Shown here: piece after piece, positions 41,033-54,059 of the stretch
Numbering within the stretch: position 1 is the stretch's first letter
Layout: every line of letters starts with the position of its first letter
NCBI GenBank assembly: GCA_003224235.1
Contig: QHYU01000182.1
Location: 1-62,477, forward strand
Direction of reading: 5' to 3'
DNA length: 62,477 nt
Source: Acidobacteriota bacterium
GTDB taxonomy: Bacteria; Acidobacteriota; Terriglobia; Acidiferrales; UBA7541
Made by a program: the position numbers and the translations under genes
Notes under the pieces: model-generated
What the model was told of the DNA's origin: nothing
Seen by the model: only the letters and a program-made list of their open reading frames with translations
Database searches by the model: none

Positions 41033-41320
41033 CTAGTCAGGCGCTTGAGCCGCCAGCAGGCCGAGCCTGCGCAGCTCTTCGTACGTGTACACCATTTGCT
41101 CGCTGCTGCCACTCTTCTCCACGTGGCCTAGGCCGGAAACGCGCGAAAGCTGCCGGAGTTCTATGGTCGTGACGCCAAGCAAGATGGCTGCGCGGCGCTC
41201 CCCAACTTGATCTAGGTTATTGCCGTCCACTCGAGTGCGCCTTCCTTCAACGGACAGATCATGTCCGAGAGAGGGGACTATGAAGCTAGCTTGATGCGGG
41301 GCGTAACGAGAAGATCGCAT
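41033..41320 (-). CDS. small protein with MerR/excisionase-like helix-turn-helix
   Basis: 95 residues. The C-terminal half, RAAILLGVTTIELRQLSRVS then QMVYTYEELRRLGLLAA, looks like a MerR- or excisionase-type winged helix that binds DNA. The N-terminal 45 residues are not conserved-looking, so the true start may be internal. No partner gene is adjacent. A terminator-like hairpin follows. It could regulate neighbouring genes or be a mobile-element remnant. Confidence 0.45.
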   Translation of the reverse strand: MRSSRYAPHQASFIVPSLGHDLSVEGRRTRVDGNNLDQVGERRAAILLGVTTIELRQLSRVSGLGHVEKSGSSEQMVYTYEELRRLGLLAAQAPD

Positions 41321-41639
41321 AAAGGGCGCTGGAGCGCAATCCCTTGAATCTGGGATTTTGCTGGGAAAAAACCCCGGCCTCTTGCGTATTACTACGGGGA
41401 ACCCCCGCGGCCGTTGTCGCCTCCAACTTCAAGGTTGGCAACCCTTCCGGCGAGGTCCGTGAGACGACACTGGATCGATTGACTGAATTCCTGCGGGCAG
41501 TGGCCCGGTGCCTCCGCGCGATGCAGAGACGTGCGCGGACTCCGAGGTCGAGTTGCCGGCTACTTGCCTCGGAACCGCCGGAACATCGTCGCGACCTAAC
41601 TCACCTCCAAGCCGTTTTTTCGCGACGCCCGTTCCGTTC
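41321..41639. other. intergenic region before the duplicated leader
   Basis: 319 bases without a supported gene. It includes TTGCGTATTACTACGGGGAA at 41382-41401, which resembles TATGCGTACTACTACGTAGA before the second copy of the leader near 52840. Confidence 0.4.
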
Positions 41640-42000
41640 TCAGTAGTACTACGGCCCGCCTCGCAGATTTTTCCTTGCAGAATGCCAGATCCACCGGATT
41701 GTGGTGCCGCGCGCCTCATGAGATTTTCTTGTCATGATGCCCCGCAGTAGAACGAAGCGGTCCTCAAGCAGATCACTCCTCCAGCGGTGGGAATCTGTAT
41801 TGGTTCCCGTAACCCGAGGAAAAAGGCAACGCCCTTTCTGCGGCGCAGTTCCAACCGCTGTAGCAGTGATCCAGGGCCCGTGGCTCGCTGTCGCGTGGCC
41901 CGGACTTCAGCCGGAGCTTCACCGCCCGCGCTGACGAGCCGAGTCGTACGAATGACTGGCGCTTGGTGACAACAGACTTGCAATACCAGAGGAGGACACA
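41640..42000 (+). promoter_or_regulatory. paralogous structured leader, copy 1
   Basis: The 360 bases before the immunity-like ATG align with 52843-53222. The best part is 41764-41875: outer arms GATCACT (41771-41777) and AGTGATC (41865-41871), then CAGCGGT (41782-41788) and ACCGCTG (41854-41860), enclose an inner hairpin around AAAGG-N-CCTTT. GGAATCTGTATT is shared by both copies. It could be a cis-acting RNA or a processed small RNA. Confidence 0.55.
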
Positions 42001-42366
42001 ATGTACACTGCACATTACCAAGGGACGGCGCAAGTGGTGGTGATCGCCGGGCTGGTCCTGCTGTACTTCTTGCCCGCCTTAGTCGCCTGGATCAATCGCA
42101 GGAAGAACGCCGCGGCCATTACCCTGCTCAATCTCTTCCTGGGCTGGACGTTTGTGGGCTGGGTCCTGCCCCTGGTCTTGGCCTACATCCCCGACGGCCA
42201 CCTTCTCCAAGCCTCCTTGCCACCGCCACAATCACTGACGTTCCCTCCCGTGCCGGTCGATGAGGGCAGGCACACCGTCTGGACCGCCCCAGCAGTGGCC
42301 AAGACGGAAGACGTGTTTATCGTCCGCGGCCGTTTGGTTCTGGAGGAAGGCCCCGAGGCAACCTAA
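42001..42366 (+). CDS. superinfection immunity-like membrane protein
   Basis: 121 residues with GAGGAGG before the ATG. Two membrane segments (VVVIAGLVLLYFLPALVAWI and LLNLFLGWTFVGWVLPLVLA), separated by the INRRKNAA loop, match the Imm_superinfect family named after phage T4 Imm, which blocks DNA entry of a second phage. Most bacterial members are of unproven function. A soluble tail of about 55 residues, rich in Pro and charged residues, extends beyond the family core. The first 33 codons and the leader recur in the metalloprotease gene at 53223. It precedes a TPR gene by 21 bases. Confidence 0.85.
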   Translation: MYTAHYQGTAQVVVIAGLVLLYFLPALVAWINRRKNAAAITLLNLFLGWTFVGWVLPLVLAYIPDGHLLQASLPPPQSLTFPPVPVDEGRHTVWTAPAVAKTEDVFIVRGRLVLEEGPEAT

Positions 42367-42387
42367 CGTGAGCGATTGGAGCACAAC

Positions 42388-43410
42388 ATGATCCGAGGAC
42401 GAACGTTGACGTGGCTGGCTACACTGCTGGTTTGGGTGTTGGTGATCCGCACGCGAATGACCGCCGCCGACGGTGTGCGTGGATCGATCTCCGGAAGGGT
42501 GCTGTTCGCAACGGACAACCGCCCGGCCGAAGGGGTCAAGGTGGACCTGAGGCGCTCCTCCTTTGAACCCGTGACCACGGTGTTCACGCGCTCGAACGGA
42601 GAGTTTGAGGTCTCCGGACTGGCGTCAGCTAGCTACCTCCTTCTCGTCGAGGAGCAGGGTTACGAGCCAGTGCAGCAGGCCGTGGAGCTCAACCTGAGTG
42701 ACGGACGGGGCTTGCTGCTGTACCTGAAGAAGGCCGACGCGGAGCGCCCGAGCCAACTCGGCAATACCGTTTCCGTGCGGGAGTTGGGCCTCTCGCCCAA
42801 GGCCCACAACGCCTTCCGAATGGGAGTGGAGCGCCTGGTGAAGAAGGATCCTGCCGGGAGCCTGGTCCACTTTCAGCGTGCCGTGGCTGAACTCCCCTCC
42901 TACTACGAGGCCTACCACCAGATGGGCTTAGCCTACATGCGCCTGGGACAAGCGGCCCAGGCTGAGCAAGCCTTCCAGAAAGCCATCGACCTCAGCCAGG
43001 GTCGTTATCCGGAGGCCCTCTTCGGCCTGGCCTCGCTTCTCTCTAACCACCAGCGGTTCTCCGAAGCCGAACTCCTGGCGCGCCGAGGGCTGGAGCTGGA
43101 TGGCAGCTCCTGGAACGGCCAGTTCGAGCTGGCGCGGGCCCTGATGGGGCTGAACCGGGTGGAGACTGCCCAGAAAATTGCAGAAGAAGCGCGCAAGCGC
43201 AATCCCGATTACCCGCTACTCCATTTGTTGCTGGCCAACATCCACATTCGGAAGCGCGACTACCCCGCGCTGTTGGGGGATCTGGACACGTTCCTGAAGC
43301 TCGAGCCGAACGGCCCCACGAGCGATCAGGTTCGCCAGACACGCGAGAAAGTCCAACGGGCCCTGGCCAATGCCCAGAAGGCACTCGCCACCGAAGCGCT
43401 CAGTCGCTGA
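42388..43410 (+). CDS. exported protein with carboxypeptidase-regulatory-like domain and TPR repeats
   Basis: 340 residues from the ATG at 42388 with GGAG upstream; a signal peptide covers residues 1-27. Residues about 32-120 form a carboxypeptidase-regulatory-like beta domain (GSISGRVLFATDNRPAEGVK, FEVSGLASASYLLLVEEQGY). Residues 130-330 form TPR repeats (YEAYHQMGLAYMRLGQAAQA, LLANIHIRKRDYPALL). Such proteins bind other proteins in the periplasm. Close spacing suggests co-transcription with the immunity-like gene. Confidence 0.87.
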   Translation: MIRGRTLTWLATLLVWVLVIRTRMTAADGVRGSISGRVLFATDNRPAEGVKVDLRRSSFEPVTTVFTRSNGEFEVSGLASASYLLLVEEQGYEPVQQAVELNLSDGRGLLLYLKKADAERPSQLGNTVSVRELGLSPKAHNAFRMGVERLVKKDPAGSLVHFQRAVAELPSYYEAYHQMGLAYMRLGQAAQAEQAFQKAIDLSQGRYPEALFGLASLLSNHQRFSEAELLARRGLELDGSSWNGQFELARALMGLNRVETAQKIAEEARKRNPDYPLLHLLLANIHIRKRDYPALLGDLDTFLKLEPNGPTSDQVRQTREKVQRALANAQKALATEALSR

Positions 43411-43736
43411 TCCCAATGGATCCGTATGCACCGCACGTATTTCGCCTCGGCTGGCGAGCGCCGAGGTTCGCTCGTTACGAAGGGCCGGAATTGGAGCCGT
43501 CTTCTATCGACGCTGCAGCCTGCGCCCGATAGAGGCTAGCAACTCGTCGTGTTACTCTTGCCTGTGCCGAAAAACTCTCTAAGGCATTTGTAGACACGGA
43601 CTCCGGGTGTGCGGGTGGAATCGGGAAGTACTTCCGTACCGAAAAACGAAAACCCCAGCACCATAGACCCTGCGGTAACGACCATTCACAATTACCTTCC
43701 GATGAAAATAACCCGATAGCGTTTGGGAGACAGGAA
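43411..43736. other. intergenic region upstream of the small zinc-ribbon gene
   Basis: 326 bases; no other gene is supported. GGGAGACAGGA at 43725-43735 serves as ribosome site for 43737. A palindromic GAAGTACTTC lies at 43627-43636. Confidence 0.45.
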
Positions 43737-43898
43737 ATGACGGTACTGTGGTGGTGCATCGACTGCGACAAGACAGTCCAGTTAGACAGACACGGCCGCT
43801 GCGGGACCTGCTGTTCAGATGCGGTGGTTTCGACGGAGGAGCCTGCCAGCGCGACCAGCTCAACCGCTCTCGTCACACTTCTGAGCGAAGATTCCTAG
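43737..43898 (+). CDS. 53-residue zinc-ribbon-like protein
   Basis: MTVLWWCIDCDKTVQLDRHG then RCGTCCSDAVVST: paired CxxC motifs (CIDC and CGTC) 13 residues apart, a compact zinc ribbon, followed by a Thr/Ser-rich tail. A purine-rich ribosome site precedes the ATG. Similar tiny proteins starting with WWC and ending in GSxAV are, to my knowledge, frequent in acidobacterial genomes but often unannotated because of their length. A nucleic-acid or protein binding role is possible. Confidence 0.7.
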   Translation: MTVLWWCIDCDKTVQLDRHGRCGTCCSDAVVSTEEPASATSSTALVTLLSEDS

Positions 43899-44400
43899 AC
43901 ACGCGGGCCTCGTCTGAAGCTACCAAGCCCCCAAAGCGGTTTTAACCTGACCCAAAAAGACTCAGCAGCTTACTTCCAGCTCGGCCTCCAGCCCCCTCAA
44001 AACACGGGGAGGACGATGGTCCACTCCAGAAAATCGCCAACCGATTCACCTGAACACGAATAATCCCCTTGCCCGCGTCAACCTCGGCGACGCCCGACGT
44101 CTACTCGAGTACCCCACCCAGTCCTGTCATCATGCTTGGCCTTTTGTGATAGTGGGAGGGTGGCTGCCGCCCATTGCAACAAGACGGACTGATACAGCGC
44201 GGGCGGGCGGTATAGAGCTATCGACCCCGCAGTATCGCCAGCGGTGCAAGCGGAACTGAGCGGCTACCCCCGGTCGCCCGGCCATTTTGAGCAGTAAGGC
44301 TCACTGTCTGGCCTCTTTCTGTTCCTTTGACCAGTTTTTCTCCGCTCACATTGCAGTTAGCTTGTGAACGCCAGCCGCAGTCACCAACAGGGGGTGAGTA
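43899..44400. other. 502-base intergenic region
   Basis: No gene, hairpin with T run, or repeat was recognised. It should contain the promoter of the phosphoesterase gene; no convincing -35/-10 pair was found. Confidence 0.45.
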
Positions 44401-46167
44401 GTGAGCAAGCGGGCAGGAAAGTACTCTGTTCTGACGAGTTTCCTATTTCTGAGTTTCGTGGCGGTCTCCTTCGCCCAGGTCCCACAAGTCAACCACGTAT
44501 TCATAGTCCTCGAGGAAAATACGAACTACGCCGACGCCATTGGCAATCCGGCGATGCCTTACCTGAACAGCCTGGCCAATCGCTACGGCGTGGCCACGAA
44601 CTACTTCGGCAACACTCACCCTTCCATCGGCAACTATTTCATGCTTACGGCCGGGCAAATCGTCACCAATAACGACTCATACAGTAACACGGTAAACGTG
44701 GACAACATTGTCCGTCAGTTATTGGCGCACGGAAAGACCTGGAAGGCGTACGAGGAAGACCTGCCCTCAGCGGGGTATATCGCGCCGAATACTGCCGGGT
44801 ACGCTCGCAAACACTGTCCCCTTTCCTTTTTCTCTGATGTGGTGAATAGCCCCACCGAAATAAAGAACCTGGTCCCATTCACTCAATTTGCGCAAGACCT
44901 GGCGAACAACCAGTTACCCAACTATTCTTTCATTTCACCCAATCTTTGCAATGATGCCCATGATTGTCCGCTCTCCACCGCCGATACCTGGCTTCGCAAC
45001 AACATCGATCCGCTGGTCACCAGCCCTCTCTTCCAAAACGACGGGATCCTGGTGATCGTGTTTGACGAAGCCGGGTCGGATAACACCAATGGGGGCGGTA
45101 AGATAGCCTGGGTCGTCGTCAGCCCTAAAGCGAAAACCGGCTTTAAATCCACCACCGTCTATCAGCACCAAAGCACTTTGCGGATGATGGCAGAGGCGCT
45201 CGGCTTGACAAGTTTTCCAGGGGCCGCGGCCAATGCGCCGGACATGGCGGAGTTCTTCGGGAATCAAGGGCCGGCGCCTCGGCCCCCCAGCGCCGTGCTG
45301 ACCGTGACCCCACAATCGGGAAATGCGCCGCTTACAGTAGTGGCGGATTCCACCGGAAGCTCATCTCCAAATGGGAGTATCGTCTCCCAGACGATTGACT
45401 TCGGCGATGGGACGGTTTCCACGTCAACCAACTCTTCTCACACGTACACCGCTACCGGAACATTTGCCGTTAAATTGACCGTAACCGACAACATCGGGCT
45501 CACCGCCTCCGCTGCTCCTAAAACGGTCGTGGTTAATGCCCCCCCGAATGCGCCGCCAAGCTGCTCGCTTTCGGTTTCGCCCAGCAGTGGGCCGGCGCCC
45601 CTCTCGGTAACCGCCACCGCCACTTGCACTGCGAAGAACACCATCGCCAGCACGGTCATTGACTGGGGTGACCAATCGAGTCCAACGAACGGGAGCAGCG
45701 GCACACATACTTATGCCAATGCGGGCTCTTACACGGCTCGTGTCACGGCAACCGACAGTAGCAACCAGACCGGCACTGCGACTCAGACGGTCACAACGAC
45801 AGCCGCGGGCGCCACTCCTGTTGATTTTTCTCTCTCCGCCACACCTCCCAATCAGACGGGGAAGCCTGGCACCACGGTCAAGTATATGGTGACGGTGACC
45901 GGCGCGGCTGGTTACACCGGGACGATAAAACTGCGCGTCCACGGATTGCCCCATGGGGCAAAGGCTAGCTTCGATCCAACGTCGATGCAGAACGCAGGGT
46001 CTTCGACGCTGACCGTTAGCCTTGGGAAGAGTATTCGGGGGGGGAAGTACGGTTTAACGATCAGCGGCTATTCCCAAAATCTGACGCGGAGAACCTCGAT
46101 TGTGCTGACAACAGTCGGCCAAAAGCCTGGCTCTCAGACGCCAGACGCAGAAGTCGATGACGACTAA
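44401..46167 (+). CDS. secreted phosphoesterase with two PKD domains
   Basis: 588 residues from a GTG with AGGGGG upstream. A signal peptide (to SFAQ) precedes a phosphoesterase of the alkaline-phosphatase superfamily, similar to phospholipase C/acid phosphatase: HVFIVLEENTNYADAIGN, FGNTHPSIGNYFMLTAGQ, SFISPNLCNDAHDCPL and IVFDEAGSD with metal ligands. Residues about 292-380 and 385-470 are two PKD domains (TIDFGDGTVSTSTNSSHTYT, VIDWGDQSSPTNGSSGTHTY), and the last 110 residues are a beta domain. It probably releases phosphate or head groups from organic phosphates outside the cell. Confidence 0.9.
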   Translation: MSKRAGKYSVLTSFLFLSFVAVSFAQVPQVNHVFIVLEENTNYADAIGNPAMPYLNSLANRYGVATNYFGNTHPSIGNYFMLTAGQIVTNNDSYSNTVNVDNIVRQLLAHGKTWKAYEEDLPSAGYIAPNTAGYARKHCPLSFFSDVVNSPTEIKNLVPFTQFAQDLANNQLPNYSFISPNLCNDAHDCPLSTADTWLRNNIDPLVTSPLFQNDGILVIVFDEAGSDNTNGGGKIAWVVVSPKAKTGFKSTTVYQHQSTLRMMAEALGLTSFPGAAANAPDMAEFFGNQGPAPRPPSAVLTVTPQSGNAPLTVVADSTGSSSPNGSIVSQTIDFGDGTVSTSTNSSHTYTATGTFAVKLTVTDNIGLTASAAPKTVVVNAPPNAPPSCSLSVSPSSGPAPLSVTATATCTAKNTIASTVIDWGDQSSPTNGSSGTHTYANAGSYTARVTATDSSNQTGTATQTVTTTAAGATPVDFSLSATPPNQTGKPGTTVKYMVTVTGAAGYTGTIKLRVHGLPHGAKASFDPTSMQNAGSSTLTVSLGKSIRGGKYGLTISGYSQNLTRRTSIVLTTVGQKPGSQTPDAEVDDD

Positions 46168-46207
46168 GCCGGATGGTTCATAGAAATTTAGGTTTGAGAT
46201 AAACGAA

Positions 46208-46267
46208 GAGCCTCCTGGGTGCTAGAGAAGCGGTTGATGAGATCGTGACTTTGCACCCGGGAGGCTC
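46208..46267. repeat. inverted repeat upstream of the transposase remnant
   Basis: GAGCCTCCTGGGTGC (46208-46222) and GCACCCGGGAGGCTC (46253-46267) pair over 15 bases with one mismatch and a 30-base loop. It could be a terminator-like structure of the phosphoesterase gene or belong to the end of the former insertion sequence. Confidence 0.6.
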
Positions 46268-46268
46268 G

Positions 46269-46454
46269 ATGAATCGCTACTGCAACGACGCCGGCTGGCT
46301 GCGCGCCGATCCGGCACTGAAGCTGGCAATGAGAGCGCGCGGCCCAAGTTCGGACCCCGCTCTGGCGTCGCAACCAAGGCTGCCGCGGTGGGAGAACTTG
46401 CTCGTGCGGGATCTGTGGCGGCTGGAGGATGCGGTGGTCGATCAAGGTCCTTCG
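46269..46454 (+). pseudogene. IS1380-type transposase remnant
   Basis: The frame encodes CNDAGWLRADPALKLAMRAR, then SDPALASQPRLPRWENLL and RDLWRLEDAVVD, which matches the N-terminal third of IS1380-family transposases (NDxxxLRxDPAxKLAxGR...LxSQPTLSRWEN). The upstream first 60-80 residues, and the catalytic rest, are absent; the frame runs into the S9 peptidase gene end. It is a decayed fragment. Confidence 0.7.
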
Positions 46455-48608
46455 TTACTTAATGTCGGGGCTCCGTGTTGAATCCACTTGTTCACCGGTG
46501 GCGATCTTTTCTCCGCGCTTAAGCGTGCGCTCGAAGAAGTCCGCTGTGGCACTGTAGGCCTTGATCCAGCTCCGCCAAAGCAGGAACGAGTGGATCTCAT
46601 CCGGAAAGATGAGTTGCTCGAACGGCACGTGCTGCTCGCGCAGCCGCTGCACCAGGTCCACCGTCTGGTTGAACGCGACGTTGCGGTCATCATCCCCATG
46701 AATCAGGAGCACCGGAGATCTCCAGGTCACGATGGAAGCGTCAGGAGAAGACTCAAACGCTAGCTTGGCGGCTTCCGCAGCGTCGGGCGCGGCCTGGAGC
46801 TCGGGCCGCCGCAGGAACGCTGGCCAGTCGTGCACGCCGTGCAGGTCCACACCCGCGGCGAAAAGGTCCGAGTTGCGCGCCAGGGCCAGCGCCGTCAGAA
46901 ACCCGCCATAGGAGCCGCCCCACAGTCCGATCTTGTGGGGATCCACAATCGGAAGCGATTGTAGATACTTCGCTGCGGCAACAACGTCCTTGTATTCCGA
47001 CGCGCCCCGCCAGCCCGCATTGGCTGCCTCACGGAAGGCCCGCCCGTACATAATCCCCCTCCGGTAATTTACGGAGAGCACCACGAATCCCAGGCTCGCC
47101 AGGTACTGATTTTCTGCATAAGCATAGTGGTAGTAACCCCGCGGGTGGAAACCCAGCATCATCTGCCGGATCGGTCCACCATGCAGGAAGATGACCGCTG
47201 GCGCAGCCGCTGGGCGCCCGCGAGGCACAAACAGCTGGCCGTGAATACTGATTCCGTCAGCGCTATCGAAGATGACTTGCTTCGGCGGTACAAGCTCCGC
47301 CGAAGGAAAATCGCTGGGCAGCGTCTCACGGGCGATGATCTCCAGTCCCTTGTTCGTGATGCGGTACGGCATGGCCGGTATCGTTGCGCCGGAGGCGAGA
47401 CAAAACACGTACGTTCCGTCTCCACTCTCGAGCGGTTCCCACTCGATGCCTTCGCCCATTGTCAGTGGCTGCGGTTTGCCGCCGGTCACCGGGACGCGCC
47501 AGATGTGCCGGCGGTCCGTGTCGTCCTGGTTCGAAGAATAGACGATGGAAGTTTTGTCAGCGCTCAGGGTCACATCTTTGACGTCGAAGTTCCCTGGGGT
47601 GAGCGCCACGGCCGCGCCCCCTGTCACCGCAATCGAATATAGGTGGTTCCAGCCGTTCTGCTCGGAGGCAAACACAATCCGGTTCCCGACGACAAAACGC
47701 AGAGACGCGTCCGCAGTCAATCGCGGCAATGACCCGTTTTCATCCGTCGTGCTCTGCCAGATTTTGCGCGCATTGCCCGCAGTCACATCCGCCACCCATA
47801 ATGCCCACGGGACCGGCGTTATCGGGATGAGCGGCTGCTTCAGCTTCAACCCCGGCGCGCGGATGAAAACGATCTGCCTCCCGTCCAGTGACCAGCGCGG
47901 GAAAGAATCGCGGTCAACGCTCGGTGCAAGAAAGCGCACCGTGTCCCGCCCAAAGCTATAGATACCAATAAAGCTGTGGTCGCCGCGGTCGCTGACGAAG
48001 GCGATTTGTTTTCCGTCCGGCGACCACTTCGGTTGCGCATTGTCGCCGCGCGCATACGTTAGCCGGTGGGCAGGTGTGGCGCCGGAGATTGGCGCGATCC
48101 AGAGCTGTTGACGCGCCGACCATACCGCAAACAGCCCTTCCGGCGAAATCTGGATGTCTTCGCAGCCTTCGTGGCCACACCCCATCTCGCCCAGCAGCCG
48201 GCTGCGGCTGGTCTCCACGTCCACCGCCCAAACCTCCTGGCGCGGCTGCTGCACGCTGCTAGTCGGGTCGGCCACGTCGCCCGCGCTGTTCGTCTCGCTG
48301 CCCCGGGCGAAGATCACTGTTTGGCCGTCAGGGGTGATTCGCAGGCTGGACATCTCTACGCCGTCGTCATCCGTGTATTGTGTCACCTGCCGCGCTCTGA
48401 ACTCGGGCGCGTCCGCCACCCAGACATTGCGCACGCCTCTCTTGTTGAAGACCCACGCCAGTCGCCCGCCATTTTTGGCAGCCACAAGTTGCGAAGGAAA
48501 AGGCGAGCTCATGACCTGTTCCAGCGTGTACCGCCCCCGCGCCGGAGAGGCGATTAGGAGGAGCAGGAGACAAGCAAGAGCAGATGGTGAGACACGGTTT
48601 CTCAGCAT
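46455..48608 (-). CDS. S9-family prolyl oligopeptidase-like peptidase
   Basis: 717 residues from the ATG at 48608. A signal peptide (SALACLLLLLIASPARG) precedes a beta-propeller of PD40-type repeats (QPKWSPDGKQIAFVSDRGDH, FPRWSLDGRQIVFIRAPG) and a C-terminal alpha/beta hydrolase with the nucleophile GGSYGGFLTALA, acid HGDDDRNV and histidine DEIHSF. Such enzymes cleave short peptides, often after proline or from acylated N-termini, in the periplasm or outside. The start lacks a clear ribosome site; a longer frame reaches 48683. Confidence 0.93.
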   Translation of the reverse strand: MLRNRVSPSALACLLLLLIASPARGRYTLEQVMSSPFPSQLVAAKNGGRLAWVFNKRGVRNVWVADAPEFRARQVTQYTDDDGVEMSSLRITPDGQTVIFARGSETNSAGDVADPTSSVQQPRQEVWAVDVETSRSRLLGEMGCGHEGCEDIQISPEGLFAVWSARQQLWIAPISGATPAHRLTYARGDNAQPKWSPDGKQIAFVSDRGDHSFIGIYSFGRDTVRFLAPSVDRDSFPRWSLDGRQIVFIRAPGLKLKQPLIPITPVPWALWVADVTAGNARKIWQSTTDENGSLPRLTADASLRFVVGNRIVFASEQNGWNHLYSIAVTGGAAVALTPGNFDVKDVTLSADKTSIVYSSNQDDTDRRHIWRVPVTGGKPQPLTMGEGIEWEPLESGDGTYVFCLASGATIPAMPYRITNKGLEIIARETLPSDFPSAELVPPKQVIFDSADGISIHGQLFVPRGRPAAAPAVIFLHGGPIRQMMLGFHPRGYYHYAYAENQYLASLGFVVLSVNYRRGIMYGRAFREAANAGWRGASEYKDVVAAAKYLQSLPIVDPHKIGLWGGSYGGFLTALALARNSDLFAAGVDLHGVHDWPAFLRRPELQAAPDAAEAAKLAFESSPDASIVTWRSPVLLIHGDDDRNVAFNQTVDLVQRLREQHVPFEQLIFPDEIHSFLLWRSWIKAYSATADFFERTLKRGEKIATGEQVDSTRSPDIK

Positions 48609-48924
48609 GGTAGACACAAAGCAAATGATAGGTGAAGTTTGGCCGGGCACACAATGCGCATGGAACGCCTTCATGGCGGCCAAAGTTTACGATATCGGGG
48701 TGCGGCTTGCCACCGCTCTGTTGATAATGGCGAAGTTCACGCTGCAACCCTCGATGCCGCCCAAAAGGGCTGCAAGCTGCGGCTTCTCGACGATGCGGAG
48801 ATCCAGGTCGAGCAGCACGGCGTCTCCGTGCGAATTGGGCGTGTTCTCTGCTTAAGAGCACCTGGACATGGTCGGCGGCTATAATCTAGCTGCACCAGTT
48901 GCGTTTGCTGGAATGGAGGCGTAG
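48609..48924. other. 316-base divergent intergenic region
   Basis: No supported gene. It separates the minus-strand S9 peptidase from a doubtful plus-strand small frame. Confidence 0.4.
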
Positions 48925-49146
48925 ATGGCAAGACACAATAACCGCCGCAACTCTCTGCACCGGATGGGATTACTTGCGGCGGGACTCGTTTTCCCTCGGC
49001 TGAACGCCTTGGCATTCCAGGAGAAGAGGTCTGGGCACGCGCGGCACCGGCAGGCGCCTCCTCGCGATCATCCCGTTCGTCTTCATTCTGAAGAGACACG
49101 CGGCCCCGCGGAGGCAGCCTGTCGGCGCACTGAGAGTTGCCACTAA
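48925..49146 (+). CDS. doubtful small protein, possibly frameshifted
   Basis: 73 residues, MARHNNRRNSLHRMGLLAAG and onward, with GGAGG six bases upstream of the ATG. The N-terminus has a basic-hydrophobic start like an export signal. After about residue 38 the next frame reads TGRRLLAIIPFVFILKRH, a hydrophobic stretch, so one frameshift may have split a small membrane protein. No family was recognised. Confidence 0.3.
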   Translation: MARHNNRRNSLHRMGLLAAGLVFPRLNALAFQEKRSGHARHRQAPPRDHPVRLHSEETRGPAEAACRRTESCH

Positions 49147-49352
49147 GCAAGCCGCACTAGTGGAGCAGGCAGCCGGCGCTGGCTGCGCTCCTGGCGCTTG
49201 TCGAGCAATCGAGTTGAGCCCAAACTATCCGACGACTCGCCTGAGGATGTCCCGGAACGGGCAGGGCAGTTACAGCACCTGGCGCAGAACGAGGCAGCCC
49301 GCCGCTCGCCTAACAGTTTTCGAGACACTCTCCCGCACGTCGGAGTTACGGC

Positions 49353-51014
49353 TCAGGGCTTATTGTTGCGCCGTTTGGCTGAGGCGAACTTCTCGGCAGG
49401 CGTGGTGCTCGCGCCGGTCTGCCGCGTCAGATAGAGCATAAAGGGCGTCAGCTCAAACGGCATTTTCTGCTCCCGCTCGGATAGCGACCCAGCCGCTTTG
49501 GTCTTGAGCATCTGGATGCGGTCACTCCAGGGATCGAGTTTGACGCGCGAGCCCAGCGGGAGGGGAGAAATCTGGCCGGCACGCTTGGAGGGCGGCGGGG
49601 CAGAGGCATTCTGCCGCTCGTAGCTTACCGGCACGCGGTTGCCCAGGTGCGGGCTGACCAGGTTGGGGATTTGTTTGGCGCGGGCATCGAGCGTCAATCC
49701 AAATAGGGCCGCGTTGCGCAACGAGTTGTTGTACGGTGAATGCTTCAGCAGCTCCATGGCCTTCTGGCTGGCGGCTGCCTCTTCGGCGGGCGTGCGAGTG
49801 AGGGTAAAGTGCTGGAACGCCTCCTTGTCGTCGAAGCGCATGCGGTCAAAGAAGGCGTACTGCGTATCGATCTGGTGCCCGAGCACGATGTGGCCAAGTT
49901 CGTGCGCCAGCATGGTGGCCAGCGTAGCCTCGTCCGGCATCACGTCGATCAGACCGCGGCTGAGTACGATGGTGTGGCCTGCAGTGAACGATTCCAGCGT
50001 TGTGGTGAGCAGGACCCGACAATGGACTTCCGGCTGGATGTCGAGGTCGTTGGTAACTTCCAGATTGTTCACCACGGTTTCGAGTACCTTGTCCACATCG
50101 CCGGGGGGCGCGAGTAGGCCGGTGCCGTCCAGGCGGTGGATGACGTTTTCTTCGGCCTGCTGATTCCAGGCGCGTTGGGCCTGGATGGGCGAGGAACCGT
50201 TCGCCGTTTCGGTCTGGTCGTGAACGGGCACTGCCGACTCCACTTGAATGCTGCTCAGTTCTTGTTCTTGTTGCTGGGTCTGCCCAAGGTTGTATCCCCA
50301 GAGCCGGGTTTGCGATTTGAAGCGGAGTCGCTTCCCGAGCCCATACGACAGGTTATTCTCCTCGCTGTAAATCGCGGCGGGGACCCATAGACCGGGGCCC
50401 GCGTTCACGCGCCAGCTATCGAATGACAAGTAGATGCCGGTCGAGTTGCTCCCGCGGTAAGCGCCGTTGAATCGGACGATGGTGTAGTTCTGGTCCTCGA
50501 CCCAGATGCGGCCGAGGAAACGCCCTTTGCCCGACTTGGGAAGCGGGATAACGTCAAAGACCAGGCAGCGGACTTCCCCCAAAAACTCCCGCCGCACATA
50601 GTTGAACTTGTAATGCTGTCGATCGAAATGCTCGGTGTCGAGGAAGATCATCTGCAGGAAACCATCCGGCTCGTACTGCAGCATGATCCAATCTTTGAAA
50701 CCTTCGAACAGGTTGTGCTTGGTGTCTGACTTCGACCTCAGTAACTGAAGCCGGACGCCCTTGCGGAGATCCGCCTTGCCCAGGAAGTACCGATCGCTCG
50801 AGGGCACGTTTCCCGTCTCCTCGTGGAGACTCAGGTTTTGGATGTAGGTTTCCACCAGCGGGGTATATTGCTGCAGGGACTTGTCCACTTCGCGCTCGCG
50901 GCTGATGACGCGGTCCACCACCTGGTCCAGGCCCTTTGCCTGGTCCGCCGCGCACAGCGGCAGAGCGACGAGTGCGAAAATGAAAGCAAGCAGAGATTTC
51001 CTCGAAATGCGCAT
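49353..51014 (-). CDS. M48-family metalloprotease with N-terminal extension
   Basis: 553 residues with a signal peptide (to LCAAD). Residues 25-260 form a beta-rich region of unknown role (RREFLGEVRCLVFDVIPL, GRIWVEDQNYTIVRFNGAYR). Residues 300-440 are an M48 zinc protease: H371-E-L-G-H375 in MLAHELGHIVLGHQ, with a third ligand probably in RTPAEEAAA. The C-terminal 110 residues are proline- and basic-rich. Secreted M48 enzymes take part in protein quality control at the envelope. It starts 15 bases after the TonB-like gene, so the two are one operon. Confidence 0.9.
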   Translation of the reverse strand: MRISRKSLLAFIFALVALPLCAADQAKGLDQVVDRVISREREVDKSLQQYTPLVETYIQNLSLHEETGNVPSSDRYFLGKADLRKGVRLQLLRSKSDTKHNLFEGFKDWIMLQYEPDGFLQMIFLDTEHFDRQHYKFNYVRREFLGEVRCLVFDVIPLPKSGKGRFLGRIWVEDQNYTIVRFNGAYRGSNSTGIYLSFDSWRVNAGPGLWVPAAIYSEENNLSYGLGKRLRFKSQTRLWGYNLGQTQQQEQELSSIQVESAVPVHDQTETANGSSPIQAQRAWNQQAEENVIHRLDGTGLLAPPGDVDKVLETVVNNLEVTNDLDIQPEVHCRVLLTTTLESFTAGHTIVLSRGLIDVMPDEATLATMLAHELGHIVLGHQIDTQYAFFDRMRFDDKEAFQHFTLTRTPAEEAAASQKAMELLKHSPYNNSLRNAALFGLTLDARAKQIPNLVSPHLGNRVPVSYERQNASAPPPSKRAGQISPLPLGSRVKLDPWSDRIQMLKTKAAGSLSEREQKMPFELTPFMLYLTRQTGASTTPAEKFASAKRRNNKP

Positions 51015-51029
51015 AGCTCCTCCGAATCT

Positions 51030-52322
51030 TTAGTACGCCATTTGGAAAACAATGTGGATAACGGCTGGAAAATCGACGGGCTTGCCGTGGTGTCGCGCTG
51101 GTTTGAAACGAATCTGCTGCGCGGCGCGGACTGCAGACTCATCCAAACCATGTCCCAGTCCCCGCACGACGCGGATCACCCGTATCTCGCCGGACGCGCG
51201 GAAGATCACCTGAACGAGCACCTCGCCCTCCAGACGCAGGCGCCGCGCTTCTTGGGTGTAAACCGGCTGCGGCTTCGACAGAATCTCCACCGGTTCCACG
51301 GCTTGCGCCGCTCCCCCGCCGCCCGCAACTGTGCCTGGAACTCCCTTCGCCCCGCCCAAGCCGTTCCCGAATCCTGCTCCCTCGGGCAGGCCGAACGATC
51401 CTCTTTGGGCAATGTTGGCGCGCTTCTTCGGGTCGCCGGGACCGGGCAAGCCGTAGGGATCACCGAAGCCCCCGGTCTGAACGTGCTGGGCATTCTTGTG
51501 TACGGTGGGCGGTGCGAAGCTGACCGCCGAGAGCCCGCCGGTGTGCACTGTTGGCCGCGGGCGCGCCGGCTTGGCGGCGTCAAACTTTGGGGCCTCGAAG
51601 ACCGGCTTTGGCGGAGCCATCAATTTGGCAACCTTCGGCCGCTCGAGCCGCTCCATCTCCGGATGTGCTTTGGCTTGGATTTTCGGCGGCGTGAGGGGCA
51701 GTGTGGTGGGCGGCGCAACCAGCGCAACAACTTCGTAATGCCGGAAGGGAGCGAGCTTCTCCGGCAACAGTAGCGGCAGCGCCATCAGGAACACGACGCC
51801 GATGCATTGAATCACCAAACTTGTGGCGAACGCGCGGTGACGCGGCGCAGGGTCCGCCAAGATGGTAAAGTTTGCGGCAGCCGACCCGCTGCCCAAGGGG
51901 TTTTTCCGCCGATCCTTCTCGCGGGTACGCTCTCCGCCCTGGGAACGAATGCCGAGGACCCCTTGCCTGAGCTCGGGAACCGTAGATTTCTCCGACCGGC
52001 TGGACAAGAAGTGCGAGAGTTGCGAAGCGAGGGACCTAAGCAAATGCTGAAGACTCAAGAAGAGCTTCCGCCATGAGCGTTCACTCGGAAGGACTGGGTC
52101 CACTCCGGAATGGCGCCGCCTACTGTCCCGAATGGGGCCAAGTTTTGAAGACCGTTGATCCTCGTCCCGGCCATGCGCCGCCGCACGGGCGGTACGCTCG
52201 CCGGGTTGTAAACCAATGCCCAGAACCCCCTGCCGGAGCTGGGGAACCGTGGTTTCCGATCCCTTGGACAAGAAGCCCGAAAGAAGCGAACTGAGGGCCC
52301 TAAGCAAACTCTTAAAATTCAA
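51030..52322 (-). CDS. TonB-family protein with duplicated N-terminal segment
   Basis: 430 residues from a TTG with GGAGG six bases upstream. Residues 1-88 and 89-145 repeat each other: FLSKGSETTVPQLRQGVLGI and FLSSRSEKSTVPELRQGVLG. One membrane segment lies near 167-187 (LVIQCIGVVFLMALPLLLP), a Pro/Lys-rich periplasmic stretch at 200-330, and the TonB C-terminal domain at 340-430 (EILSKPQPVYTQEARRLRLE, GEVLVQVIFRASGEIRVIRV). A second TTG at 52058, in the downstream copy, could be the ancestral start. It forms an operon with the M48 protease and lacks nearby exbB and exbD. Confidence 0.82.
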   Translation of the reverse strand: MNFKSLLRALSSLLSGFLSKGSETTVPQLRQGVLGIGLQPGERTARAAAHGRDEDQRSSKLGPIRDSRRRHSGVDPVLPSERSWRKLFLSLQHLLRSLASQLSHFLSSRSEKSTVPELRQGVLGIRSQGGERTREKDRRKNPLGSGSAAANFTILADPAPRHRAFATSLVIQCIGVVFLMALPLLLPEKLAPFRHYEVVALVAPPTTLPLTPPKIQAKAHPEMERLERPKVAKLMAPPKPVFEAPKFDAAKPARPRPTVHTGGLSAVSFAPPTVHKNAQHVQTGGFGDPYGLPGPGDPKKRANIAQRGSFGLPEGAGFGNGLGGAKGVPGTVAGGGGAAQAVEPVEILSKPQPVYTQEARRLRLEGEVLVQVIFRASGEIRVIRVVRGLGHGLDESAVRAAQQIRFKPARHHGKPVDFPAVIHIVFQMAY

Positions 52323-52340
52323 GAAGAACCTCCGTGATAG
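51900..52340 (-). repeat. 264-base tandem duplication at the TonB gene start
   Basis: Start codons TTG at 52322 and 52058 are exactly 264 bases (88 codons) apart, and the sequence around both is alike: the ribosome-site region, CTTCTTGA, the run GCTTAGG-CCCTC, ACAAG and the GTTCCC-AGCTC part. The ribosome site is intact only in the upstream copy. Confidence 0.75.
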
Positions 52341-52842
52341 CTGTTCACCCAGAAGGGCTGGGCTAACCCCGAAATAGAACCATCTGCTGGTGCCAAGCCG
52401 TAAACATTGTGGTGACAGGTTAGCCCGCTTTTAGCCGTTCGGCCGGGCGGTTGTCCGGCGCGAATAGTGCGACCCCGGGAAATCGACCCCTGGGGACCGT
52501 CTGCGCCAGTGTTTTTAGCCCGCGCCGACAGCGGCCAAATCGGGAGTGCTACCAGCAGCAACCTGACCTAGGGGCGCACGTTCATTACCTCACTCCCACC
52601 GCCGAACGCGCTCACCTGTTCCATCGATAATTGTGCCGGAACTTAGGGGCTGCGCAGCTTCCAATTGCGTTTTCTTGTGCGGGTTTCTGCACCTGTTCTA
52701 TCGGCCAGGTCTTGCGCGTATGGCGGACTAGCAAGCAACTTGAGGTAAGAGGCGCGGCGGCTCGTGGCCGCCCAATCACCCCAATACCTTCCCGACCGAC
52801 TTCGCTTGCCACACTGCCATTCGCCCGGTCTCATTCGTATGC
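52323..52842. other. intergenic region upstream of the TonB gene
   Basis: 520 bases with no supported gene. The left end holds the ribosome site and leader of the TonB gene; the right end carries TATGCGTACTACTACGTAGA, similar to a string at 41382. Confidence 0.4.
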
Positions 52843-53222
52843 GTACTACTACGTAGAACCCACCTCGTAGTCTTACTTACACTGAATCCCATATTCACAG
52901 GATTGCTCTCCAGCAGGCGTTGTGAGATTGTCGCCACACGTCCCGCATTTCCTTTGAGAGGTACCCCAAGCAGATCGCACCGCTCCCAGCCGTAGGAATC
53001 TGTATTCGTCCCCGAGCAAGCTGAGAAGAAGCAGCCCCCTCCTTTTCTTCAGCGCAGTTCCCACCGCTGTGGCGTTGATCACAGGCCTGCAATCAGACGT
53101 CGCACAAGCGCTCGACCCTCAGCCGGTGCTTCCCCCAACCGCGCTGGCAAACCGAGCCATTACGCCGGACTGGCCCTTGGCAACAACAGACATTCAGTTC
53201 GATCCCCAGAGGGAGAAGGGTG
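52843..53222 (+). promoter_or_regulatory. paralogous structured leader, copy 2
   Basis: The region aligns with 41640-42000, including CCAAGCAGATC, GGAATCTGTATT, GCGCAGTTCC and ACCGCTGT-GC-TGATC. The outer stem is kept (CAGCCGTAGGAA with TTCCCACCGCTG, one mismatch and one wobble). The inner hairpin is CTGAGAAGAA / TTTTCTTCAG, different in sequence but in the same place as in copy 1. The ATG follows 143 bases after the structure, against 130 in copy 1. Confidence 0.55.
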
Positions 53223-54059
53223 ATGTACGCAGCACAGCACGCAGGACCAGCTCACGTAGCTGCAGTCGCCGCGCTCGTCCTGCTGTACATCTTGCCCGCG
53301 TTAGCAGCTTGGATCTGCAGAAAGTACACAGAGCAGCCCAAAGTCGGCGACACCGCGCCACACGCGGTGATGAGCGCCGCGAGCAGGCTTTCGCGGGTCT
53401 CTCAAGTGGTGTTGTTCCTGGCCTTCGGTTCGACGTGCGCTGCCCAGATGTCCTCGGGCGACGTGGAATTGAGCCTCTTAAAAATCACGATTTCCGTCTA
53501 CAACCATGCTGAAGTTTCTCCCGAGGCGCTGGCGACGGCAGAACACAGAGCGGAACAAATCTTTCGTAGAGCGGGGATAGCAGCCGTCTGGGCACATTGC
53601 CGGGTGTCTGAGGCGGAGGCTCCGCGCGACCAAATGTGCGGCGAGCCGCTTAGCCCAGCTCATCTGGCTCTGAGGATCCTTCCGCAAAGCATGAGCGCAC
53701 ATTTTAACTTCAGTGACACAACGTTCGGGGCAGCCATGCTTTCTCCGGAAGGAACTGGCTATTACAGTTACGTCTTTCAGGATCGCGTCGAGCAACTGGC
53801 CAGGGACTCGCATGCGAACCGATCTGAGATTCTGGGTCATGTGGCGGCCCATGAAATCGGCCACCTGTTGCTGGGGTCTAACGCCCACTCCCAGATGGGG
53901 ATTATGTGCGCGAACTGGTATGGCCGGCAGTTGCGCAGCGCCGCCATGGGAACGCTGCTTTTTACTCCACAGGAGTCCCAGCTTATTCGGGCCAAGCTGC
54001 TTTCCTGGACCCGCCAGGAAGAGGCGCTCCGCTCTTCCGCAAATTCCTCTCTGAAATAA
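53223..54059 (+). CDS. metalloprotease fused to an immunity-like membrane N-terminus
   Basis: 278 residues from the ATG at 53223; a GTG at 53220 and an internal ATG at 53370 are alternatives. Residues 1-34 (MYAAQHAGPAHVAAVAALVL, then LYILPALAAW) match the start of the immunity-like protein at 42001. A second hydrophobic segment (VSQVVLFLAFGSTCAAQ) resembles the signal peptide of the protease proper. The protease part has TISVYNHAEVSPEALATAE, FRRAGIAAVWAHC and the zinc site H210-E-I-G-H214 followed by GSNAH, then MGIMCANWYG, as in an acidobacterial family of secreted zinc proteases. The fusion seems real because the frame is continuous. Confidence 0.85.
   Translation: MYAAQHAGPAHVAAVAALVLLYILPALAAWICRKYTEQPKVGDTAPHAVMSAASRLSRVSQVVLFLAFGSTCAAQMSSGDVELSLLKITISVYNHAEVSPEALATAEHRAEQIFRRAGIAAVWAHCRVSEAEAPRDQMCGEPLSPAHLALRILPQSMSAHFNFSDTTFGAAMLSPEGTGYYSYVFQDRVEQLARDSHANRSEILGHVAAHEIGHLLLGSNAHSQMGIMCANWYGRQLRSAAMGTLLFTPQESQLIRAKLLSWTRQEEALRSSANSSLK

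Follow-up and report, generated by a model that had tools for sequence, protein, structure and literature searches.

The closest described counterparts of the locus reported here belong to three kinds of system. The first are the phage superinfection-immunity families PF14373 (Imm_superinfect) and phrog_1039 ('immunity to superinfection'), the second are the metzincins (archaemetzincin, matrixins and adamalysins), and the third are Solibacter-1, Acido-1 and Acido-Lenti-1, structured RNA candidates from Acidobacteria, of which Solibacter-1 comes from a single species and has no Rfam number in the published table (PMC2864571). We compared with these a block of DNA that occurs twice in the window (the whole stretch analysed, 62,477 nt of contig QHYU01000182.1 from an Acidobacteriota bacterium), once at 41640-42105 at an Imm_superinfect gene, in the following called imm (copy A), and once at 52843-53325 at a zinc protease gene (copy B). 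Like the immunity families, the copy A product and its two paralogues in the same genome match the PF14373 domain, and the copy A protein has two hydrophobic segments; it differs in being chromosomal, with no phage neighbours seen and no PADLOC match, whereas copy B retains the first part of such a gene only, with no PF14373 match in its 278-aa open reading frame. The copy B protease shares with the metzincins the predicted fold, the HExxH motif and then a further His and a Met, but the spacing of its zinc motif is HExxHxxxGxxxH instead of HExxHxxGxxH, with one additional residue before and one after the Gly, and it carries an extra N-terminus derived from imm. The leader between promoter and gene resembles the lineage-restricted RNA motifs as a structured RNA candidate from Acidobacteria; the negative Rfam search given below covers Acido-1 and Acido-Lenti-1. 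Most likely the switch region of the block is an ordinary promoter and leader RNA shared between genes rather than a phage-response cassette, because it recurs at other genes of the genome.

The first-pass annotation had described the block as a duplication within the window, and this was clearly borne out. Using blastn, positions 41762-42093 aligned with 52964-53315 (68% identity over 352 bp, E 6.6e-27), and the two leaders reached a Smith-Waterman score of 128, far above that of 500 shuffled pairs (19 +/- 2.5, maximum 31). Diverged homology extends upstream to approximately 41640/52842 in a MAFFT alignment, and profile R1, whose training sequences included copies A and B, detects this upstream part in both copies and also elsewhere in the genome. 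The alignment of both regions comprises the leader and 31-33 codons, the codons being free of indels. Within the first 31 codons (family D2), which align gapless at 74% nucleotide identity, 19 of 31 amino acids are identical, including the terminal pattern LVLLY-LPAL-AW. Differences between A and B are distributed 6/5/13 over the three codon positions and dN/dS is about 0.3 for these 31 codons, which indicates that they evolved as coding sequence during at least part of their history. Downstream the coding parts diverge, as had been noted, into Imm_superinfect in copy A and a metalloprotease with its own signal-like segment in copy B. The statement that the module is present twice holds for the block with all its parts, but not for the parts, some of which have additional copies at other places in the genome. 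Three parts make up the block, each with its own genomic distribution: a promoter-like element of ~90 bp with 7 strong and ~3 weaker copies (part 1), a hairpin of ~105 nt in the presumed 5' UTR at four sites (part 2), and the proximal UTR with the first ~31-33 codons of the Imm_superinfect gene, found in two paralogues as well (part 3). Their positions are listed in Table 1.

Table 1. Features of copies A and B and of their surroundings (window coordinates)
Feature	Position	Strand	Evidence and remarks
Promoter-like element, further copy	41308..41398	-	R1 76.9 bits, E 3.6e-21; divergent from copy A
Box of minus-strand element	41383-41396	-	
Promoter-like element, copy A	41640..41730	+	R1 76.1 bits, E 6.5e-21; putative promoter
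Box TCAGTAGTACTACGG, copy A	41640-41654	+	Mismatch search
CCAGATCCACCGGATTG, copy A	41685-41701	+	Mismatch search
Putative -35 TTGTGG, copy A	41699-41704	+	17-bp spacing table
Putative -10 GATTTT, copy A	41722-41727	+	17-bp spacing table
Hairpin leader, copy A	41771..41871	+	R2 109 bits; fold z -4.19; presumed 5' UTR
Proximal 5' UTR and ribosome-binding site	41949..42000	+	Alignment; also in copy B and the imm paralogues
Imm_superinfect (PF14373) protein, 121 aa	42001..42366	+	Pfam, phrog_1039, hydropathy
Probable frameshifted relic, start of CarboxypepD/TPR gene	52399..52555	-	tblastn, blastn
Promoter-like element, copy B	52839..52934	+	R1 66.7 bits
Box CGTACTACTACGTA, copy B	52842-52855	+	
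Putative -35 TTGCTC, copy B	52903-52908	+	17-bp spacing
Putative -10 GATTGT, copy B	52926-52931	+	17-bp spacing
Hairpin leader, copy B	52973..53080	+	R2 122.3 bits; fold z -3.26
imm-derived N-terminus (~33 codons) and ~16 junction codons	53223..53369	+	In frame with protease
Zinc protease, predicted metzincin fold, from likely original start	53370..54059	+	Homologue N-termini; AlphaFold2

The copy A protein matches PF14373 with 53.3 bits (cut-off 27.9, E 2.5e-14) and phrog_1039 with E 2.6e-16, and hydropathy places its two hydrophobic segments at residues 13-31 and 45-63. Two full paralogues of imm, L002 and L003, were found on contigs C210 and C1; they have the gene start, ~50 bp of 5' UTR and the membrane segment in common with A and B, and the blastn match to C210 starts at query position 310, corresponding to 41949 in the window. 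Parts 1 and 2 are absent from both paralogues, with neither an R1 element nor an R2 hairpin at these loci, and neither the leader nor imm was found in the sister genome G088 (80% complete). The phrog_1039 match is a homology of small membrane domains and no evidence of function here. A link to phage response, which the annotation had considered possible, gained no support: no PADLOC model matches the copy A or the copy B protein, the neighbouring genes with Pfam matches are not phage genes, and PF14373 is present in 80 of 399 relatives. The sole link to phage is the homology to the superinfection-immunity families.

The promoter-like element consists of a palindromic CGTANTANTACG-type box, a T-rich tract, CCAGATTCACCGGATTG and the pattern TTGnnn-17-NAnnnT, in which NAnnnT is a weak -10 pattern. 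Strong R1 copies are A, B, the one at 41398-41308 on the opposite strand, and single copies on contigs C151, C170, C115 and C36; weaker copies were observed on C221, C117 and C137. Downstream of the opposite-strand copy lies a small open reading frame (41036-41221, minus strand) with a possible ribosome-binding site and no Pfam match. The genes that follow the copies are unrelated to each other, and those on C151, C170, C115, C36, C221 and C137 have no membrane segment. All copies that we checked are in sense orientation, ~50-340 nt 5' of the start codon. TTGnnn-17-NAnnnT was present in 9 of 11 tabulated copies, C117 and C137 being mis-registered in that table. We regard the element as a putative promoter. 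Five further CACCGGATTG copies show TTGnnn-17-TAGGCT or close variants, and these additional core sites suggest a wider promoter class. At the five loci (L175, L184, L185, L189 and L190) the CACCGGATTG core is preceded by different upstream sequence, and GTCAGGTATT-like sequence is seen in four of them.

The best evidence for the box as a possible regulatory site comes from G061, a genome of another genus, in which a box CTCGTAATACTACGCAA is located upstream of a gene resembling the ACT-domain gene of C115; a box before a similar gene fits a conserved regulatory site. Most R1 matches in other genomes of the family were short and partial, many of them in apparently coding DNA, and G061 was the only one kept. 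By itself the box is unusable as a genome-wide signature, because its pattern CGTANTANTACGNA shows no enrichment (15 sites in the genome, compared with 38 when the reversed pattern served as control). Genes of NarL-type response regulators, recognised from sequence, immediately precede the C151 and C117 copies, and we treat them as a lead only towards candidate regulators of the element. These two genes (L138, 2571-3227, and L135, 223-882) are similar to each other, and each adjoins a copy of the promoter-like element.

The hairpin leader, described by profile R2, was found at four sites of the genome only, namely at A, at B and on contigs C219 and C151, and at the latter two the downstream genes have no membrane segment. 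From the hairpin end to the start codon we counted 130 nt (A), 143 nt (B), 121 nt (C219) and 134 nt (C151), so that the fixed upstream position looked for was found, nearly constant, at all four loci. As in A and B, the hairpin of C219 folds better than its shuffles (z -3.4); that of C151 folds no better than shuffles (z +0.43). When the four copies were aligned, 92% of the cells were paired versus 26-51% with slid partners, although shuffles reach similar values, and there is almost no covariation, only two base pairs having changed on both sides. A small second stem is predicted downstream of the hairpin. Such a compact promoter-hairpin unit with a second small stem could also be a separate gene for a small RNA, expressed from a promoter of its own, for which the downstream genes would be incidental; we consider this quite unlikely, as the spacing to the start codon is nearly constant wherever the hairpin occurs. 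Another reading is that of a dispersed MITE-like or palindromic repeat family which has no regulatory role and landed upstream of genes by chance. In line with such a family, several diverged copies are restricted to a single genome, the inverted repeat is long and imperfect, and the 3' endpoints vary. However, the copies checked lie sense-oriented upstream of genes, their promoter-like spacing is constant, the distance from hairpin to ATG stays within 121-143 nt, and the upstream box precedes a similar gene in another genus, and we therefore regard a repeat family as unlikely. The hairpin region is better read as a putative functional part of the 5' UTR.

To place this leader among known RNAs we compared the region with 4227 Rfam covariance models, none of which overlaps either leader even at E values up to 5; weak matches were located elsewhere in the region. 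A search of 88 other family genomes yielded no copy of the hairpin, and a scan for its exact pattern across 84,980 species, with a single genome per species, returned two matches, apparently by chance. These two and the 25 matches of a pattern scan of viral contigs were taken as chance because only one of the loci scores with R2 at all (E 1.4), and an R2 match in G071 (E 0.002) was rejected as it lies inside what by eye appears to be the uvrC reading frame. There was no convincing hairpin at the homologues of the C219 gene in G059-G061, nor at the paralogue of the DoxX-like gene on C25 (L207, 74% amino-acid identity), which has no detectable leader. Since the hairpin is absent from the other genomes searched, the case for its function is built on four paralogous copies. 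The products of the four genes are the Imm-type protein, the protease with its signal-like segment, a protein that has no Pfam match but an apparent signal peptide, and a DoxX-like protein (the only one with an NCBIfam match, below cut-off), and all four look envelope-associated. The hairpin leader is the part of the block that could still prove new. One may speculate that it is a new lineage-specific leader RNA which, together with the operator-containing promoter, co-regulates envelope genes (an Imm-type membrane protein, an anchored metalloprotease, a predicted secreted protein and a DoxX-like membrane protein), with copy B as an example of its capture along with a membrane helix; we hold this to be possible but doubtful.

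The annotation had further proposed a mobile or recurrent promoter-leader-anchor unit which supplies different effectors with regulation and a membrane anchor. In favour of this, promoter, leader and membrane segment are common to the two copies, and the copy B segment is joined in frame to a protease. Promoter and leader do indeed recur before different genes, but the membrane segment lies outside the recurring unit: the promoter precedes six genes without the segment, the hairpin two (C219 and C151), and L002 and L003 have the segment alone. The unit thus fails because promoter and leader recur without the membrane segment, the leader having been found elsewhere in the genome without it. Mobility gained no support: searches of 50,697 phage and 72,556 plasmid records gave no match, and all checked copies are in sense orientation upstream of genes. 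With just two complete copies of the block found, we consider such a cassette very unlikely.

For copy B we analyzed where the protease originally began. Homologues of the protease were found in 22 other genomes of the family; their alignments to the long open reading frame start no earlier than residues 29-97, and most begin at residue 44 or later. Each of the 12 homologues inspected has a signal-like segment in alignment with that of copy B after 53370 (MSAASRLSRVSQVVLFLAFGSTCAAQ), and none has the imm-like part. Because these homologues begin near 53370 without the imm-like part, this position is the likely original start. The protease has the motif HEIGHLLLGSNAH...GIM. Its AlphaFold2 model (pLDDT 79.8) contains N-terminal helices at residues 9-36 and 47-77 followed by a domain for which a metzincin fold is predicted: residues 81-266 retrieved metzincins both in Foldseek (zinc peptidase 3lmc, E 6.9e-5; archaemetzincin 2x7m, E 2.1e-4) and in VIA-align (best Z 12.9, rmsd 3.6 over 153 residues). 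The canonical metzincin zinc motif HExxHxxGxxH is absent from the protease, its homologues share HExGHLLLGxxxH, and the Pfam M10 match is below cut-off. The codons upstream of 53370 are open and in frame, but a junction of this kind, free of stop codons, would arise by accident with a probability of ~19%. The upstream start codon at 53223 may be used. If translation begins there, the protease would gain a second membrane helix; the two helices would form a hairpin resembling the one in the Imm-type protein, and the protease domain would lie outside the cytoplasm.

The neighbourhood of copy B probably contains a further trace of the imm locus. In copy A, imm is followed by a CarboxypepD/TPR gene (42388-43407), and a probable relic of the start of this gene adjoins copy B, based on short matches (tblastn E 4e-5 and 2e-4 in two frames, blastn 29/33). 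Taken together, the starts of the homologues, the codon differences and this neighbour relic suggest a duplicated and rearranged imm locus and not a cassette. Our favoured explanation, which we consider fairly probable, is a shared promoter and leader combined with a segmental duplication and promoter capture in copy B. A sigma-70-like promoter with an upstream palindromic operator would drive a transcript with a 5' UTR of ~265-285 nt, in which a long, imperfect hairpin forms ahead of the ribosome-binding site. A group of genes in this species would share the promoter architecture, and four of them the hairpin leader. The imm locus, including its promoter and leader and possibly some of the gene that follows, would have been duplicated ~11 kb away and rearranged, which would also explain why copies A and B are more alike than the other copies; we infer this direction of the duplication. 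In copy B the 3' part of imm would have been lost, leaving promoter, leader and the first 33 codons in frame ahead of a secreted protease, which would thereby have come under imm-type control. The locus would then be a traceable case of promoter and leader capture, in which a duplicated gene start probably controls, and possibly extends, an unrelated protease, and from it a candidate class of promoters and a candidate leader RNA can be defined for this lineage. Also near copy B, at 51924-52389, an imperfect direct repeat surrounds the start of a minus-strand TonB_C gene, with stretches of 135 nt (71%) and 65 nt (78%) and an offset of ~265.
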